From positions 2,542,001-2,606,000 of the forward strand of contig NZ_JAEPRJ010000001.1 of assembly GCF_016651435.1 (NCBI RefSeq): DNA of 64,000 nt, given 5' to 3'. Positions 1 through 29,885 of the stretch are shown piece by piece. Origin of the DNA: Catonella massiliensis (GTDB lineage Bacteria > Bacillota > Clostridia > Lachnospirales > Lachnospiraceae). The position numbers and the translations under genes are program-made. A model generated the notes under the pieces. The model ran no database searches. It was not told the origin of the DNA and was given only the letters and a program-made list of their open reading frames with translations. The first letter of the stretch is position 1; the number at the start of each line of letters is the position of its first letter.

Positions 1-904
1 AAAATACACACCTTCTTGCGATACATCTTAAGTTATTCTTACAATCTATACACTCCTCACTTACATTTCGATTAAATTCTTCCAATCTCTTTTCCCAATC
101 TAAGTCAATACCTGTAAATATAGAACCGATAATGAACTTATTGTTGCCATGTACCGCAATGCAAGGATAGATATTCCCTTCATAATCAATTACCCTATTG
201 TAAATTCCACCTAAACATACTCCTTTATCTGAGTCTGTTATAGAAATAGAACTACAAATAGAATATTCATTCTTGTCCTTTATATATTCCTCACATTTTT
301 TTATTTGTATCGAATAAATAGATAAATCAGCTTTTGTCCAATAGTAGTTCCAATAATCAATATAACAAAATATATGCTTAAATCCTAAATCCCAAAGATG
401 CATAATATTTTCAAATAATACGCATACACTATCTAATGAAACAGTAACTCGCCCAGTAATCTTTAATCCATCCTTAATCATTTTTTTTATATTTGAGCTA
501 ACAGTTGAATATGAACCTATACCATTTTTAAATATTCTCATTGAATTATGAACTAATGGTTTCCCATCTATACTAATACTGATATCATCTATTTTTCTTA
601 ATAGATTTAATATATTTCTCCCATATAGTGTTCCATTTGTTGTAATTGAATATGTAAATCTTATCCCTTCAATTGTATTAAACTTATCAATTAATAAAGA
701 AATCACCTTATAATTCAGCAAAGGTTCTCCTCCATGAAACCTAACCAAACATTCCTGCACTCCATTGATAGCAAATGTACTTCTAAGAAATTTGTAAACT
801 TCTATAGCTGTACTTTCTTTCATAAATGCAGCATTTTTATCCCCTTCATAACAATATCTACATCTCATATTACAATCTTCTGCAACCCACAATGAAACAG
901 ACAT
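1..904 (-). CDS. Radical SAM/SPASM protein, 3' end beyond window
   Basis: This reading frame is open from an ATG at 902-904 to the window edge, so the C-terminus is missing. The translation carries a CxxxCxxC radical SAM cluster motif at residues 11-18 (CNMRCRYC), then an HGGEP segment typical of the SAM-binding fold. Near the window edge it has a SPASM-like run of Cys (CIDC, RC, RRC) for auxiliary Fe-S clusters. It begins one base after the stop codon of the upstream radical SAM gene, so the two are surely co-transcribed. Enzymes of this class install thioether, C-C or other radical crosslinks on peptides, or mature an enzyme. The neighbouring small Cys peptide suggests peptide modification, which is inference. 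No leader-binding domain is visible at its N-terminus. Confidence 0.85.
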   Translation of the reverse strand, partial: MSVSLWVAEDCNMRCRYCYEGDKNAAFMKESTAIEVYKFLRSTFAINGVQECLVRFHGGEPLLNYKVISLLIDKFNTIEGIRFTYSITTNGTLYGRNILNLLRKIDDISISIDGKPLVHNSMRIFKNGIGSYSTVSSNIKKMIKDGLKITGRVTVSLDSVCVLFENIMHLWDLGFKHIFCYIDYWNYYWTKADLSIYSIQIKKCEEYIKDKNEYSICSSISITDSDKGVCLGGIYNRVIDYEGNIYPCIAVHGNNKFIIGSIFTGIDLDWEKRLEEFNRNVSEECIDCKNNLRCIARRCVF

Positions 905-905
905 T

Positions 906-2138
906 TTAGCCATATATCTTTTTCTCCAATATTGTTTTTCTAGATTTACAGTAAGCTTCCAAGTACCCATATTTATTATATAAATACATATACGCTGGAC
1001 AAGTATTGCAAAACATATATACTTTACAACCACTGCAATATGGTGCTCTATCTGGCATTATTGATTTATAATTATTATATCCACTCGTTTCACGGTATCC
1101 TTTATTTCTCATATAATTATAGAAATTGTCAATTTTTAAAATATTATCCCCTTTAAACTCTTGTAAATTCAAAGCTCCACACGGATATATACATAAATCA
1201 CTACCAATATAAATATTGCTCATAAACGCATCACAGATAGTTGTTCTATATTGAGGTAAAAATCCCCAATTTACTTCAGTTTTTTTATAATTTATACTCC
1301 TTCCATTAAGGTCTTCTATAAACATTTCTTTAAATAATTTCTCATCATTGTCTCTCCCTCTTCCAACTGGAGCAAATCTTCTAAGTATTGGCACAGTCCC
1401 CCACTTTTCATTTAGTTCATAAAATGCAGATTCTCCATTTCTATTAATTGATGTTATTACTGATGAAACCGATATTTTATCCATACCTGCATTTTTCAAC
1501 AATCGTATTGCTTTATCAATTTTATCAAAAACATTCACTCCTCTAATCGCTTCACAGGTTTTCTTATCATAACCATCTATGCTTATGCTTATATCATCAT
1601 AATTATCAGCCAAAAATATTGCATTATCCTCATTAATTAATGTAGCATTACTCATCAAGCATAATTTATCAAATCTTTCTCTTGCAAATTCAGTCAATTC
1701 AAAAAAGTCTTTTCTAACGAGTGGCTCTCCCCCTGTTATGCAGATTGTTTTAACTCCTATTTTTGACAAAATCTGAAAAACACTTTTTAATTCTTCGGTT
1801 GATGGCTCTCCTGCAAATTCCATTACTGAATTTGCACAATGAAGACATTTTAAATTACACAAAGCTGTTATGGCAATATCTACACTTACTAACTCATTTT
1901 TATTATTATAATCTATCAATTCCAGCTTTTTCAATTTATTTAATATATCTTCAATATAAATTCTGCTATCCAAATCAAACTGATTAATAAAATCCTCATG
2001 TTCACTTTCAGTATTTATATAATTATTAACATAGTTAAAACACTCTTCTGTTAGTTTTATCCAACATCCGTTATGAGGATTATTTAAAACAACATATCCA
2101 TTTTCCGAAACAATTCGTATATCTTCACAATATTTCAT
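906..2138 (-). CDS. Radical SAM/SPASM peptide maturase with RRE-like N-terminus
   Basis: 410 aa. Residues 1-85 look like a PqqD/RRE-type leader-binding region: a short beta-rich segment (NGYVVLNNP) followed by a helical EDILNKLKKLELI stretch. The radical SAM cluster motif CNLKCLHC lies at residues 94-101 and GGEP at about 136-139. The C-terminal third holds a SPASM-type Cys set (CDAF, CIYPC, CSGC, FCNTC, YC). This order (RRE, radical SAM, SPASM) is that of RiPP maturases such as sactipeptide and ranthipeptide enzymes. It lies 69 bp downstream of a small Cys-bearing peptide gene and is followed at once by a second radical SAM gene. No clear ribosome site precedes the ATG, so the start is less sure than the identity. 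The chemistry performed cannot be read from the sequence. Confidence 0.88.
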   Translation of the reverse strand: MKYCEDIRIVSENGYVVLNNPHNGCWIKLTEECFNYVNNYINTESEHEDFINQFDLDSRIYIEDILNKLKKLELIDYNNKNELVSVDIAITALCNLKCLHCANSVMEFAGEPSTEELKSVFQILSKIGVKTICITGGEPLVRKDFFELTEFARERFDKLCLMSNATLINEDNAIFLADNYDDISISIDGYDKKTCEAIRGVNVFDKIDKAIRLLKNAGMDKISVSSVITSINRNGESAFYELNEKWGTVPILRRFAPVGRGRDNDEKLFKEMFIEDLNGRSINYKKTEVNWGFLPQYRTTICDAFMSNIYIGSDLCIYPCGALNLQEFKGDNILKIDNFYNYMRNKGYRETSGYNNYKSIMPDRAPYCSGCKVYMFCNTCPAYMYLYNKYGYLEAYCKSRKTILEKKIYG

Positions 2139-2207
2139 ATAGTAGTCTGAGAAGCAAATAAACGCGTAAGAAATATTAAATTCCCTTGCACTTCTATTAA
2201 AACTAAT

Positions 2208-2420
2208 TTAGAAAAACGGGTTGCCCTTAGCAGTTTTTTGTGTATGCTGTACTTCTGAACATGTACACGCAGTTATTGCGGGGCCACCAACCACACCAGA
2301 TTTTCTACCAGATGCCTGCTTAGAATATTTTACCTCTACACAATCATCCATACAGCTTTGAGCTTCAACTTCTTGTTCGTCATATTTTATAAAATTACTA
2401 TCAATTTTTATTTGCTTCAT
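2208..2420 (-). CDS. Putative RiPP precursor peptide
   Basis: 70 aa, preceded by a good ribosome site (AGAGGAAAGGTG, suitable spacing). The N-terminal half is acidic and leader-like. Cys occur at 23, 27, 52 and 54. The second half has a Gly-rich GVVGGP stretch, then ACTC, then a basic end finishing NPFF. It is the first gene of a unit that continues with two radical SAM/SPASM enzymes, and it has its own promoter, so a precursor role is the simplest reading. I do not recognise it as subtilosin, SCIFF, Clo7bot or another known precursor family. No GG-type cleavage site can be assigned with confidence: GVVGG at 42-46 is one candidate. Confidence 0.7.
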   Translation of the reverse strand: MKQIKIDSNFIKYDEQEVEAQSCMDDCVEVKYSKQASGRKSGVVGGPAITACTCSEVQHTQKTAKGNPFF

Positions 2421-2463
2421 ATTATCACCTTTCCTCTAATTTGTATATTTCTTACGCAATATC

Positions 2464-2492
2464 ATTGTACATCTTTTCTTAAATTATTTCAA
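2464..2492 (-). promoter_or_regulatory. Sigma-A type promoter of the RiPP-like operon
   Basis: On the minus strand TTGAAA (2487-2492) is followed after exactly 17 bp by TACAAT (2464-2469), about 40 bp before the precursor ATG. The match to the consensus is good and the distance is normal. Confidence 0.6.
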
Positions 2493-2530
2493 TTGTCTAT
2501 TTATTAAGTTTGTGTCAAGTACTTGTGTGT

Positions 2531-2569
2531 AGTTTTTTAACTTAAATGCAACATTGTGTTGCACTTACC
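2531..2569. repeat. Copy 1 of an IS30-relic-associated repeat
   Basis: The stretch holds a small palindrome (TGCAACA-3 nt-TGTTGCA) within an AGTTTTTTAACTTAAATG context. Close relatives lie at 28124-28203, where it fuses into an IS30-family transposase relic, and at 29804-29885. It is therefore most likely an insertion sequence end left behind. Confidence 0.5.
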
Positions 2570-2632
2570 TTGGAAATCCAGTCAAATAAATATCAGCAGA
2601 ACCATAAAAATTTCCCAATTAGATGCATTAAA

Positions 2633-3597: not shown

Positions 3598-4631
3598 CCC
3601 TCTTCCTCCAAAAGTATAAAATCATTGTTCTTCCTGCTTATAAGCCTTAGTTCATCGCCGTTTTTAATCTCTGCTTTGGTAAATTCTCCGTAAGGAAGCC
3701 TTACCTTGTATTCATTTTCTTCTGCCTCAAGTATCAGCTCGGTAATCTCTCCCCCAAAAGATATCTGCTTTAAGCTGACCTTTATCCCCAATTCTCCCTT
3801 GTTATCCACATCTAATTCGCTTGGACGAAGAAGGAGTTTATATTTCCCCGGCTTTTTATCAGTTTTAAAACTAATTATATCAGATGTAAAGGTGTTTCCT
3901 TCCACCTTGCCGCAAAAGAGGTTAACATCGCCTAACATAGCTGCAATTTTCTCATCTTTAGGACTGTTATACAGCCTCTCAGGACTGTCAAAGGCAAGTA
4001 TTCTCCCTTCTTCCATAAGGGCAAGCCTGTCAGATAGCGCCATAGCCTCTTCTTTGTCATGGGTTATCATCACAGTTGTTATGCCATTTTCCCTGTGAAG
4101 CCTCCTTACAAGCTCTCCCATTTCCTTTCTGAGGTCTTCATCAAGGCTTGCAAATGGCTCATCTAAGAGGAGGAGCTTAGGCTCGGCTCCAAGCGCCCTT
4201 GCAAGTGCCACTCTCTGCATCTGTCCTCCAGAGAGCCTGCTCACCTTTCTTTTCTCATATCCTGAGAGCCTAACCTGGTCTAAAAGCTTCTCTACCTTTT
4301 CTTTGATTACTGCCTTGTCCATCTTCTTAAGCTTCATGGCAAAGGCAATATTATCCTCTACATTCATATGAGGAAAGAGCCTTAAGTCCTGAAATACTAT
4401 CACCGTCTGCCTTTTTTCAGGTGGAAGTCCTGCTACATTCTTATCAAAGATGCCTATATCTCCGTTATCAGTTTCTAAAAGCCCTGCTATACTCTTTATA
4501 AGGGTGGTCTTGCCACAGCCGCTTTTTCCAAGTATGGAGACAAATTCACCACTTTCTATCTCAAGGTTGATATCCTTAAGTATGTGGTTTTTCCCATAAC
4601 TTACATTCAATCCTTTTACACTTAAACTCAT
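3594..4631 (-). CDS. ABC transporter ATPase, YnjD/PotA-like
   Basis: 345 aa. Walker A is GKSGCGKTT, the signature is LSGGQMQRVALARA, and Walker B LLLLDEPFAS is followed by the switch His (MITHDKEEA). Residues after about 240 form a small beta-rich TOBE-like regulatory domain, as in polyamine, iron and thiamine importers. It lies 7 bp after the second permease gene and is followed by an overlapping nucleoside hydrolase. With two separate permeases and a lipoprotein it makes a complete importer. The layout corresponds to E. coli YnjBCD, whose substrate is not settled. Substrate here: unknown. Confidence 0.9.
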   Translation of the reverse strand: MSLSVKGLNVSYGKNHILKDINLEIESGEFVSILGKSGCGKTTLIKSIAGLLETDNGDIGIFDKNVAGLPPEKRQTVIVFQDLRLFPHMNVEDNIAFAMKLKKMDKAVIKEKVEKLLDQVRLSGYEKRKVSRLSGGQMQRVALARALGAEPKLLLLDEPFASLDEDLRKEMGELVRRLHRENGITTVMITHDKEEAMALSDRLALMEEGRILAFDSPERLYNSPKDEKIAAMLGDVNLFCGKVEGNTFTSDIISFKTDKKPGKYKLLLRPSELDVDNKGELGIKVSLKQISFGGEITELILEAEENEYKVRLPYGEFTKAEIKNGDELRLISRKNNDFILLEEEG

Positions 4632-8764: not shown

Positions 8765-10102
8765 TTACCTCACATCCTTATACATTGCTGAAATTTCTTC
8801 TATATTTACTCCCCTGCGGTACTTCGCCCTAAGACGGTTCATCTTCCACATAAGCCTTAGCTTCCTTATGGGGCCTCCCTTAAAACGTCTTGTACTGGTG
8901 TATATTCTATGTCTTGCCATACCAAGCTTTATGCCCTTTTCCTTGAGGGTAAGGGATAGCTGGTAGTCCTCCATTATAGGTAAGTCAGGATACATACCTA
9001 TTTCCATAAATAAATCCCTGTCTATGACTATGCCCTGGTCGCCAAACATTACCTTCCTGTCAAACACCCTGTGGTTGCTTATATACCTGCAGATAAACAT
9101 CAGTGGTGAAAGGCTCTTAAAGGCTATACCAAAGCAGCCTGCTCTGTATACCTCCATAAGGTCAAGGATTTCTTTTAGTGGGTTAGGCGGTAGAGTGCTG
9201 TCACAGTGTAAGAAGAATAAAATGTCTGCCTCTACGCTAAGTGCCCCAAGGTTCATTTGGTTGTTGCGGCCTTTCTTAGAATGAAGCAGCCTGAACTTGC
9301 TCTCTTCAATCAGCTTTGCCGTATTGTCTGTGCTTCCGCCGTCCACAAAGACTATCTCACATCTATCCTTTATCCCTTTAAGCTGGTTCATAAGGCTTAC
9401 GATAGTCTCTTCTTCATTATATGTTGGAATGATTATTGCTATACTTTTATTCTCTTTAAGAAAGATTGCAGTATGAGTTTTTCTAAAATCCAAATCTGTC
9501 CTGATTATCCCATAATAAGCCTTTATATCCTCTTTAGTATCTATGTCTCTAAGTCTTCTGCCTGTCCCAAGGCTTAGCCCCATATCCTCTATCTTCTGCT
9601 TTGTATTCTCAAATACGCTGCCTGTGCCATAGCCCTCTATATCAAATATTTCCTTATTGGCCTTCTTCATCCCCACGAGGTAATAGCCTCCATCCTCGGT
9701 AGGAGATAGGACTATGTCATTATTCTCTAAGAATGTAAAGGAGCTTTCTATATCCTCTGCTAAGAGCAAAGGGATATCTGTTCCACTAAGACTCACTGCC
9801 TCCGCCCCTTCAGCTAGAACCTCAGATATAGCATTATACATCTTATCTCCAAGGTCCTCTCCCCTCTGTTCTCTATAAGTTTTATCATCACCGAATATGT
9901 TTTTAATAATACTTACATCTCCCTCAGGAAGATAGTAGATATAGGTCTTTACAGAGGCATCCAGGCCATTTAGAGTCCGCGCCAGGTCTTTAAGCATAGC
10001 AATATGAAGCCCCACGCACTGCTTTGGCGTATAGTAGGGAAGCAGGCGGGTCTTTGTCTTATGTTCCAGCGGAATCCTTGTAAATACAATAAAAGCCTTC
10101 AT
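8765..10102 (-). CDS. Fused DUF2064 and GT2 glycosyltransferase (arsenosugar-type families)
   Basis: 445 aa, two domains. Residues 1-200 match the DUF2064/TIGR04282 type nucleotidyl- or glycosyltransferase (SLSGTDIPLL, SPTEDGGYYLVGM). Residues about 215-445 match TIGR04283-type GT2 enzymes (AIIIPTYNEEETI, IVFVDGGSTDNT, NNQMNLGA, FLHCDSTLPP). Both families are named after arsenosugar biosynthesis but occur widely without arsenic genes. The two are usually neighbouring genes, and here they are joined. Its neighbours are a kinase-like gene (1 bp) and an Fe-S protein gene. The product sugar conjugate is unknown, and no ArsS or ArsM gene is seen in the window. Confidence 0.82.
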   Translation of the reverse strand: MKAFIVFTRIPLEHKTKTRLLPYYTPKQCVGLHIAMLKDLARTLNGLDASVKTYIYYLPEGDVSIIKNIFGDDKTYREQRGEDLGDKMYNAISEVLAEGAEAVSLSGTDIPLLLAEDIESSFTFLENNDIVLSPTEDGGYYLVGMKKANKEIFDIEGYGTGSVFENTKQKIEDMGLSLGTGRRLRDIDTKEDIKAYYGIIRTDLDFRKTHTAIFLKENKSIAIIIPTYNEEETIVSLMNQLKGIKDRCEIVFVDGGSTDNTAKLIEESKFRLLHSKKGRNNQMNLGALSVEADILFFLHCDSTLPPNPLKEILDLMEVYRAGCFGIAFKSLSPLMFICRYISNHRVFDRKVMFGDQGIVIDRDLFMEIGMYPDLPIMEDYQLSLTLKEKGIKLGMARHRIYTSTRRFKGGPIRKLRLMWKMNRLRAKYRRGVNIEEISAMYKDVR

Positions 10103-13225: not shown

Positions 13226-14434
13226 GTGAGAAAGTTAAGAGCCATATTTTACAACGCTACTATGTGCTTACCTATAGCTTACATCCTCGGTATCTTATTT
13301 TCACTTAGTAATAGCTACCAGATGATGATTAACCTTGCTTTGGTTATGTACATACCTGTTGCCTTCGGCATCATGCTTGGTATTGCATTCAACAATATCA
13401 CAACAAAATACCTTTTCTTCATCTATGAAGGTATTCTTATCGTGATGGCACTTATATTTGGTAAGATACCAAATATCCTTTACTTAACTAAAGAAGCGCT
13501 TAGTTTACCACCAAACGTATCAGTTAACGCAATGAAGGTGCCTTTCATCATCTTTGTCGTAGTTGTAAATATCATAAATATCTACATAACCCTTACACTC
13601 GGTAAATATCAGAAGATATATACCAAAGCAGAGCTTAAGGAAATCAAAGAAAAAGAGGCTAAGCTTAGTGACCTCAGAGAAGAAAAGAGCGAAGAAGAAA
13701 TTCGTGAAATCAAGAGTAAGAGAAAGAAACTTAGATATATTGCGCTTGCAGGCATTGTAATCTTCTTCATCGTTTACTTTGCTTTTGCAGACTTTAGAAA
13801 TAATCTCAATACTGCTTTTGCTACCATATCAAAGCTTGATACAACTGTAGTTATAGAGTATCTTAAGTCATTTGGTCCTCTTACCGCTGTAGTTTCATTC
13901 ATACTTATGATACTTCAGTCAATAGCGGCTCCTATCCCTGCCTTCCTCATCACCCTTTCAAATGCAGCCATCTTCGGCTGGGTATGGGGTGCGGTTCTCT
14001 CCTGGTCTTCAGCAATGGTAGGTGCAGCTCTCTGCTTCTTCCTTGCAAGAGCACTTGGTAGAGATGTAGTAGAGAAACTTACCAGCAAGGGTGCTATGGA
14101 AAGCGTAGACGTATTCTTTGAAAGATATGGAAAATATGCAATCTTAATCTGCCGTCTCCTTCCTTTCGTATCATTTGACTTTGTAAGCTACGGCGCAGGT
14201 CTTACCAATATGGGCTTCTGGTCTTTCTTTATTGCTACAGGTATAGGCCAGCTTCCTGCAACCATCGTTTATTCTTATGTAGGCGGTACACTTTCAGGTG
14301 GAGCACAGAAGCTTTTCGTAGGCCTCCTTTCACTCTTTGCACTTTCAATCGTAATCGGTATAATCAAGAAAATCTATAACGATAAGCACAAGGTAGAGAA
14401 GGAAAAAGGAATCGAGCTTCCTACTGAAGAATAA
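13226..14434 (+). CDS. TVP38/TMEM64 membrane protein with N-terminal extension
   Basis: 402 aa, GTG start with a perfect AGGAGG six bases upstream. Residues 1-140 add about four membrane helices not found in short TVP38 proteins, followed by a charged cytosolic stretch (Lys/Glu, about 140-175). The C-terminal half has the family core: PIPAFLITLSNAAIFGWVWG, FFLARALGRD, RLLPFVSFDFVSYGAGLT. With the YdjY-like gene it forms a two-gene unit, divergent from the other TVP38 gene. The tail is charged and cytosolic. Confidence 0.85.
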   Translation: MRKLRAIFYNATMCLPIAYILGILFSLSNSYQMMINLALVMYIPVAFGIMLGIAFNNITTKYLFFIYEGILIVMALIFGKIPNILYLTKEALSLPPNVSVNAMKVPFIIFVVVVNIINIYITLTLGKYQKIYTKAELKEIKEKEAKLSDLREEKSEEEIREIKSKRKKLRYIALAGIVIFFIVYFAFADFRNNLNTAFATISKLDTTVVIEYLKSFGPLTAVVSFILMILQSIAAPIPAFLITLSNAAIFGWVWGAVLSWSSAMVGAALCFFLARALGRDVVEKLTSKGAMESVDVFFERYGKYAILICRLLPFVSFDFVSYGAGLTNMGFWSFFIATGIGQLPATIVYSYVGGTLSGGAQKLFVGLLSLFALSIVIGIIKKIYNDKHKVEKEKGIELPTEE

Positions 14435-28037: not shown

Positions 28038-28123
28038 TCAATTAAAGTTTGTACTAATTATAATGTAATGAAAGAAAAATGGCAAGATAGTACTGTGCTA
28101 AATTGAAAATTGTTATTTGTTGT

Positions 28124-28203
28124 AGTTTTTCAACTTAAATGCAACATGGTGTTGCACCTACTTTGACAGGTGCCTCTGTTGCATTTACATTGAAAGATAT
28201 TGT
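28124..28203. repeat. Copy 2 of the IS30-relic-associated repeat
   Basis: An 80-bp stretch starting GTTTTTCAACTTAAATG with the palindrome TGCAACA-3 nt-TGTTGCA. It is about 90 percent alike by eye to 29804-29885 and shares its first 35 bp with 2531-2569. Here it leads directly into transposase codons. Confidence 0.6.
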
Positions 28204-29764: not shown

Positions 29765-29803
29765 TCATTTATTATCTATAGTTTTCAATGTACAAATATA
29801 TGC

Positions 29804-29885
29804 AGTTTTTCAACTTAAATGCAACATGGTGTAGCACCTACTTTGACAGATACCCCTGTTGCATTTACATTGAAAAATATCGTTG
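29804..29885. repeat. Copy 3 of the IS30-relic-associated repeat
   Basis: Starts GTTTTTCAACTTAAATG like copy 2 and goes on with the same order of motifs (CACCTACTTTGACAG, CTGTTGCATTTACATTG) but no transposase frame remains. The palindrome has one change (GTAGCA for GTTGCA). The region 29886-29990 after it holds no gene. Confidence 0.6.

Follow-up and report, generated by a model that had tools for sequence, protein, structure and literature searches.

Introduction

When a short cysteine-bearing peptide is encoded beside two radical S-adenosylmethionine (SAM) enzymes, the question arises of what these enzymes make of it. Such a locus lies at the left end of a 64,000-nucleotide stretch of the Catonella massiliensis genome (G000:C1:2542001-2606000), hereafter the window; it is encoded on the minus strand, extends leftwards beyond the window edge, and comprises a precursor gene followed by two enzyme genes, here called rSAM1 and rSAM2. 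The original prediction had described it as a locus for a ribosomally synthesized and post-translationally modified peptide (RiPP) with an unrecognised precursor and two radical SAM/SPASM enzymes. This description is supported by relatives, among which 27 of 33 distinct loci pair homologous enzymes with peptides that carry a Cxx[D/E]C motif. The cluster is probably a radical-SAM RiPP system in which a peptide crosslinked by two enzymes is trimmed of its leader and exported.

The Precursor and Its Family

The precursor gene (window 2208-2420, minus strand) encodes a peptide of 70 amino acids with Cys at 23, 27, 52 and 54, a VVGGP stretch and a C-terminal NPFF, all as predicted, and its Shine-Dalgarno-like sequence AGGAAAGG ends 7 bases 5' of the ATG. 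The leader and the CxxDC motif are common to its relatives; the motif reads CMDDC in the window peptide (residues 23-27, codons at 2340-2354, minus strand) and was assigned from the motif alignment and its control. The window precursor has no family match in Pfam or NCBIfam. When ten precursors were compared with NCBIfam, nine were without a family and one gave a chance-level match (E 0.043) to a transporter, so that the precursor remains unrecognised, as the original prediction had held.

As the sole query against 5.8 billion proteins, the window precursor retrieved only itself, in its own 85-residue extended version; relatives were therefore reached through rSAM1, by which all compared loci were found. 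At E ≤ 1e-30, rSAM1 has relatives in 6 of 397 host-family genomes. A six-row rSAM1 alignment, searched at E ≤ 1e-50, finds them in 5 of 392 genomes from the order and in 6 of 391 from the class, the host's own genome being counted each time; the same alignment yields 72 protein clusters at E ≤ 1e-40. A scan of a genome collection returned 80 loci, 19 of which (L032-L050) reach at least 300 bits with the rSAM1 profile and include records named Clostridium oryzae, Clostridioides difficile, Blautia, Ruminococcus and Peptostreptococcus; the other 61 (L051-L111), mostly partial and with E of 2e-29 or weaker, were set aside from the listing alone. In total, 34 loci were examined, and L115 was dropped as coming from the same genome as L042, leaving the 33 distinct loci. 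A search with a profile of 29 aligned precursors, which the original prediction had advised, matched 31 of its 244 candidate proteins at E ≤ 1, one of them being the window precursor itself.

Whether homologues of the two enzymes occur without such a peptide was checked across these loci: in 27 of the 33, one or more small open reading frames (ORFs) near the enzymes carry Cxx[D/E]C, giving 36 peptides in total. Directly ahead of the second Cys, 35 of these motif-selected peptides have Asp and one has Glu, a preference partly due to selection, because the search pattern also allowed Asn and two Asn-bearing ORFs (L048, at 9416; L114, at 16331) were left out by eye as leaderless. In a control of nearby same-strand ORFs, C..xC occurs 36 times in the listed precursors (Asp 35, Glu 1) and 8 times in other small ORFs, none of these with Asp or Glu; elsewhere in the loci, Asp fills the position in 4 of 38 cases and Glu in 2 of 38. 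The L028 peptide did not come through the ORF filter and was included manually; it belongs to the set of 36 and stands outside the control, where L034 gives two matches.

Most of the peptides share a leader, recognised by eye, in which K-I-x-K-I is followed by [F/L]-D-V-x-x-Q ahead of the motif. At the opposite end, a feature independent of the selection is found: Ser or Thr occupies position -8 from the C-terminus in 27 of the 36 peptides and position -9 in none. Moreover, Ser or Thr stands at -4 in 26 peptides, Phe, Trp or Tyr at -2 in 21 and at -1 in 21, and 16 peptides from 12 loci, including the window's, combine Ser or Thr at -8 with Lys or Arg at -6. An aromatic residue (Phe, Trp or Tyr) is among the last three in 31 of 36 peptides, and 8 of 36 end in His, Ser, Thr, Arg or Glu. 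The NPFF end, which the original prediction could assign to no known precursor class, is a local version of this C-terminal pattern, which is found in many family members. The two Cys pairs that it had singled out fared differently: its CxxxC is in fact the CxxDC family motif, while CxC, rejected here as a class-defining feature, is a peculiarity of the window peptide and not common to the family.

Several loci carry more than one precursor, with four in a row in L049, five in L042 and eight in L130, a contig from IMG/VR. The L130 precursors lie at 122-310, 3780-4222 and 13262-13866 around one enzyme set, an arrangement that suggests rapid precursor diversification. In the subfamily formed by L042, L044 and L130, an upstream Cys creates an additional CX3[D/E] in 14 of 15 peptides (by eye), the L044 peptide at 9038 having Asn in this place. 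The partner genes recur with the motif: all of the 27 motif loci have rSAM2, 26 have a subtilase (L033 is without a protease match), 24 have a large ABC (ATP-binding cassette) exporter match, and 21 have a separate small ABC ATPase no more than 9 kb away.

The loci without an accepted peptide are L037, where the peptide carries the variant CTAC; L038, where the contig ends 101 bases past rSAM1; L040, which lacks a protease and whose rSAM2 is short; L047 and L048, which have rSAM1 only; and L120, a low-scoring outgroup. Same-strand ORFs with C..[DE]C in L040, L047 (CYNDC) and L120 were considered as precursors and rejected by eye for want of a leader. Separately, a 57-residue Cys-rich ORF (CSCTCVCYC), which we take to be Clo7bot-like, lies from 3202 in L044 near radical SAM-, ABC- and protease-like ORFs and adjoins the CxxDC cluster.

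The Two Radical SAM Enzymes

The first enzyme, rSAM1 (906-2138, minus strand; 410 amino acids), was assigned from domain matches and a structural model as a radical SAM/SPASM-type peptide maturase with a predicted RiPP recognition element (RRE), the domain that recognises a leader. It matches Pfam Radical_SAM at E 6.7e-24, and SPASM-type Cys residues are conserved in the alignments of both enzymes; the Pfam SPASM model gives no report for the window rSAM1, places the window rSAM2 under its cut-off (16.7 vs 21.5), and matches 48 of 59 rSAM1 homologues. The RRE-like start claimed for rSAM1 in the original prediction is supported by an AlphaFold2 model, in which residues 1-74 (1917-2138, minus strand) would form the RRE. 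The modelled N-terminus contains three strands and three helices (E8-12, E15-19, E26-30, H31-43, H47-51, H56-71) at a mean predicted local distance difference test score of 93.4. Pfam PqqD matches 3 of the 59 rSAM1 homologues and not the window protein. The solved enzyme CteB (5why) aligns with residues 6-410 of the model, the parts outside 78-402 being barely tested by this alignment.

The second enzyme, rSAM2 (1-904, minus strand; about 324 amino acids), is a PapB/CteB-like radical SAM/SPASM-type maturase that continues leftwards out of the window to G000:C1:2541930. Its possible start at ATG 904 lies one base past the rSAM1 TAA (908-906) and agrees with the start described in the original prediction; the GGAG is better placed for an alternative start at 913, whose ATG overlaps rSAM1. 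In a comparison of 24 loci (L029, L033, L043 and L045 excluded), CxxxCxxC begins at residue 92-123 of rSAM1 in 24 of 24 and at residue 11-54 of the longest rSAM2 ORF in 24 of 24, at residue 11 in 10 of them. With this motif so near its N-terminus in every locus compared, rSAM2 has no room for an RRE. The two enzymes are fused into one protein of 753 amino acids in one genome (L029), and the distance matrices of rSAM1, rSAM2 and the S8 protease correlate (r 0.66-0.72), with 0 of 2000 permutations as high. Two rSAM1-type genes accompany one rSAM2 in L034, L036, L050 and L112.

The nearest relatives of the two enzymes differ. Among the best 25 NCBIfam families for each window protein, rSAM2 scores 166.6 bits with PapB (NF047865), without reaching the cut-off of 340, and the PapB model is matched by 6 of 6 rSAM2 proteins tested; lower scores are given by CcpM (TIGR04068; 99.7 vs 500), a QhpD-type model (84.2 vs 453) and RumMC (68.5 vs 720), and its best solved relative is CteB at 203.6 bits. 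For rSAM1, the top NCBIfam match is a mycofactocin maturase (105.6 bits, cut-off 265), which covers the generic radical SAM core at residues 89-268; StsB (102.4 vs 625) and AlbA (48.3 vs 850) score lower. Its solved relatives SkfB (142.2 bits) and CteB (141.3 bits) are nearly tied, and as a result the atoms joined by rSAM1 cannot be read from homology.

The Subtilase and the Transporters

The transporter and peptidase that the original prediction had expected outside the window were found directly to its left in the flanking DNA (L009), all on the minus strand. From the window edge outwards, these are a membrane protein of 608 amino acids (G000:C1:2540018-2541844), read from the left flank as the ABC permease of a second pair; its ABC ATPase (G000:C1:2539161-2540018), whose top NCBIfam rows, GldA and DrrA, are all under cut-off; a QhpE-like subtilase of 324 amino acids (G000:C1:2538039-2539013); and an ABC exporter of 586 amino acids (G000:C1:2536286-2538046), an MsbA-type half transporter by its top NCBIfam row, under cut-off. 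The junctions are operon-like, with permease and ATPase sharing one base and subtilase and exporter overlapping by eight. An Rfam scan of the left flank gave no match at the gathering score. Within the window, a promoter-like site (TTGAAA-17-TACAAT; 2464-2492, minus strand) with 10 of 12 matches is present upstream of the precursor, as had been claimed; such sites number 18 in the region against 18.0 expected from shuffles, with no excess, and it is therefore a weak promoter candidate.

The subtilase was identified from NCBIfam and Pfam S8 (23.6 bits), its best NCBIfam family being QhpE at 79.3 bits, with the cut-off of 165 not reached; the QhpE model is matched by 12 of 12 subtilase relatives tested at E ≤ 0.001. 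The catalytic triad of Asp, His and Ser is invariant in both alignments, and the 50 rows listed for a fold search with the whole chain contain subtilisin-fold proteases, the C-terminal domain being outside the reach of this search. The protein begins at the catalytic core with no signal or pro-peptide visible in the sequence and should thus work in the cytoplasm, as QhpE does (PMC7876137).

About 80 C-terminal residues of the subtilase (L009 15039-15290, minus strand) form a domain for which the profile evidence is suggestive of a carrier protein. In the PDB, a profile of 13 such domains matches carrier proteins, the peptidyl carrier PltL (E 2.4e-4) among them; PP-binding is matched by 1 of 12 domains (E 1.3e-5) and by 2 of 6 (best 0.05), and acyl carrier models match up to 3 of 13. 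TIGR04069 matches 2 of 13, the window's at E 0.048 and the best, in another member, at 1.8e-4. By eye, the phosphopantetheine Ser is absent, which is why this part may be a docking domain; a carrier-like domain on a leader protease poses its own question.

The permease of the second ABC pair varies in type. The window's 608-residue protein has 11 hydrophobic segments on a simple scale and no Pfam family over cut-off; the counterparts are FtsX-domain proteins in four tested loci (L027, L029, L030, L031), give weak ABC-2 matches under cut-off in one L028 protein and in L035, and match neither ABC-2 nor FtsX in the other L028 protein, in L041 and in the window itself. That the pair is frequent while its permease varies fits self-immunity, which is the most likely role of the additional permease and ATPase; the product would then be a bacteriocin, a bioactivity that follows if this role is correct.

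Proposed Maturation and Alternatives

The general composition of radical-SAM RiPP clusters is found here, namely a short precursor beside a radical SAM/SPASM maturase with a modelled RRE, a protease and an exporter. In the proposed pathway, the leader would be bound by the predicted RRE of rSAM1, and the RRE-less rSAM2 would act in partnership with it. PapB forms thioethers from Cys to the beta-carbon of Asp or the gamma-carbon of Glu, has a natural spacing of CX3[D/E] and accepts CXnD with n of 0-6 (PMC9413430); the family spacing of Cys-x-x-Asp/Glu fits this range, and on this ground rSAM2 is proposed as the Cys-Asp linker, which would form a PapB-like thioether from the first Cys to the Asp or Glu of the motif. 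In thuricin CD, two radical SAM enzymes are described as able to act as one complex (PMC12093266). This precedent, together with the sole predicted RRE, leads to the proposal that rSAM1 is both leader holder and second crosslinker; it would add a further radical crosslink at a remaining Cys or in the C-terminal stretch (T-A-K-G-N-P-F-F in the window), so that the pair may install two kinds of crosslink, as the original prediction had suggested. Afterwards, the cytoplasmic QhpE-like subtilase would remove the leader at a presumed cleavage site, and the MsbA-like ABC protein would export the mature product. A more detailed version, of somewhat less than even probability, would be a hybrid RiPP class in which an RRE-bearing and an RRE-less radical SAM enzyme share one leader, rSAM2 makes a beta-carbon Cys-Asp thioether and rSAM1 an alpha-carbon or C-terminal link, followed by subtilase cleavage, with the degenerate carrier domain docking either the modified peptide or the exporter. 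The leader-like L037 peptide, in which CTAC takes the place of Cxx[D/E]C, weighs against the role given to the motif.

The similarity of rSAM1 to SkfB and StsB would also suit a simple thuricin CD-like sactipeptide with two enzymes, in which one complex with a single catalytically needed enzyme makes only Cys-to-alpha-carbon links; the L029 fusion agrees with such a complex, and so does the non-canonical RRE of TrnD, a similar asymmetry (PMC12093266). This explanation is nevertheless improbable, given that rSAM2 resembles PapB and CteB, which are taken as non-alpha-carbon enzymes, that it lacks any RRE-like domain, and that Asp or Glu stands at +3 in all 36 motif-selected peptides, for which a sactionine has no obvious need. 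It is slightly less likely still that rSAM1 is mycofactocin-like and acts on C-terminal hydrophobic or aromatic residues, by oxidative decarboxylation or carbon-carbon linkage, while rSAM2 makes the thioethers. MftC works on a C-terminal Val-Tyr, and the top NCBIfam match of rSAM1, the aromatic residues near the C-terminus and the Ser/Thr and Lys/Arg positions ahead of them all point this way; that match, however, is far under its cut-off and confined to the generic core, StsB scores nearly as high, the best solved relatives are SkfB and CteB, and the 8 peptides that terminate in His, Ser, Thr, Arg or Glu do not conform.

By analogy with QhpC, the gamma-subunit matured with QhpD, QhpE and QhpF, the peptide might instead be a crosslinked protein part or a signal rather than a secreted antibiotic, since the toolkit of a QhpE-like protease, an ABC exporter and a Cys-Asp-type radical SAM enzyme is the same (PMC7876137). 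Such a role is judged unlikely: like those of bacteriocins, the precursors are divergent and up to 8 of them are found together, most motif loci have a separate small ABC ATPase nearby, and no amine dehydrogenase was noticed among the ORFs around the cluster, for which no directed search was made. That the small ORF is not a substrate at all, its CxxDC serving an unrelated protein for metal or disulfide binding, accords with the fact that no product has been observed; it is very improbable, considering that leader, motif, C-terminal pattern and adjacency to the maturase recur together in 27 of 33 distinct loci. The pathway proposed above is the preferred explanation.

Origin and Genomic Context

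The cluster looks horizontally acquired. Its G+C content is 28-30% against 38-40% in the surroundings, and, of 5 genomes in the genus, the host's own is the one that encodes the subtilase. A 2.43-kb direct repeat, with copies 93% identical, brackets it at G000:C1:2533819-2536242 on the left (L009 10819-13242) and 2507-4926 of the window on the right; the repeat encodes a nucleoside hydrolase, an ABC ATPase and a permease, the last reduced to its C-terminal 75 residues in the left copy, and the arrangement looks like an insertion by recombination. In the same-genus genome G397, the 2.43-kb stretch is present once at length and adjoins the counterpart of L009 624-1947, whereby about 20 kb, the cluster included, are extra here relative to G397. 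A short dispersed element is also found at window 2528-2572, 28114-28165 and 29801-29845 and, as stretches of 26-66 bases with 82-96% identity, at 15 further places in the genome; its copy at the cluster edge contains the palindrome TGCAACATTGTGTTGCA.

A plasmid search with the DNA from precursor to rSAM1 gave no match. Phage origin of the system was considered with the best four of 22 IMG/VR loci. Of these, L130 alone has the full gene set, with its eight precursors, L129 has rSAM1 and a 110-residue piece of rSAM2 without a motif peptide, and both rSAM2 and a precursor are missing from L131 and L132.

Comparison with Known Systems

Each component of this system belongs to a known kind; what is new, relative to the curated sets tested, is how they are combined and the motif of the precursor. 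In the open literature, most subscription journals being outside its scope, no description of the family under the Cxx[D/E]C motif was recognised. Published atlases of radical-SAM RiPPs may include part of it. The family is easily missed, as the window precursor by itself led to no relative and the ten precursors compared with NCBIfam gave no credible match. It can be located by looking for Cxx[D/E]C peptides next to the two enzymes, and is then found in Clostridia, among them a record named Clostridioides difficile. Should the two enzymes form different links, the system would provide a route to a peptide with two ring types, and it allows a direct test of how an RRE-less radical SAM enzyme obtains its substrate.

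Ranthipeptides (PapA/PapB, CteB) are the closest comparison, as rSAM2 is nearest to PapB among NCBIfam models and to CteB among solved structures, and the Cys-Xn-Asp/Glu of their precursors is found as CX2[D/E] in 36 of 36 motif-selected peptides, the L037 peptide lacking it; the L042, L044 and L130 subfamily additionally has CX3[D/E], the natural spacing of PapB, in 14 of 15 peptides. Unlike ranthipeptide maturases, rSAM2 stays under the PapB cut-off, has no RRE of its own and adjoins an RRE-bearing rSAM1 in the loci found (all of them through rSAM1), and the precursor has no family match. Similarly, in two-enzyme sactipeptides (TrnC/TrnD of thuricin CD; ThzC/ThzD), two dissimilar radical SAM enzymes are encoded together with ABC genes and short peptides (PMC12093266 and PMC8172795). 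An RRE is described for TrnC and for TrnD, that of TrnD being non-canonical, whereas here only rSAM1 has a predicted one and the early CxxxCxxC of rSAM2 precludes it; a PapB-like rSAM2, CxxDC precursors and a QhpE-like subtilase further separate the locus from two-enzyme sactipeptides. None of the sactipeptide maturase cut-offs (StsB, AlbA, RumMC) is reached among the best 25 families listed, and the near tie with CteB also sets rSAM1 apart from the SkfB/StsB sactisynthases.

The maturation of the gamma-subunit of quinohemoprotein amine dehydrogenase (QHNDH) by QhpD, QhpE and QhpF resembles the locus in its QhpE-type protease, its ABC exporter and the radical SAM logic of Cys-to-Asp/Glu linkage (PMC7876137). 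It differs in that the protease here is under the QhpE cut-off and bears a carrier-protein-like domain, rSAM2 is far under the QhpD-type model, and the precursor is a short peptide; qhpA, qhpB and qhpC were not noticed among the ORFs near the cluster, for which no directed search was made. Finally, the clostridial CcpM system (TIGR04068; TIGR04069, an acyl carrier-related protein) is similar through the CcpM match of rSAM2 and the C-terminus of the window subtilase, which weakly matches TIGR04069; all of these scores are under their cut-offs, the precursor is unmatched, and the carrier-like domain is here fused to the protease.

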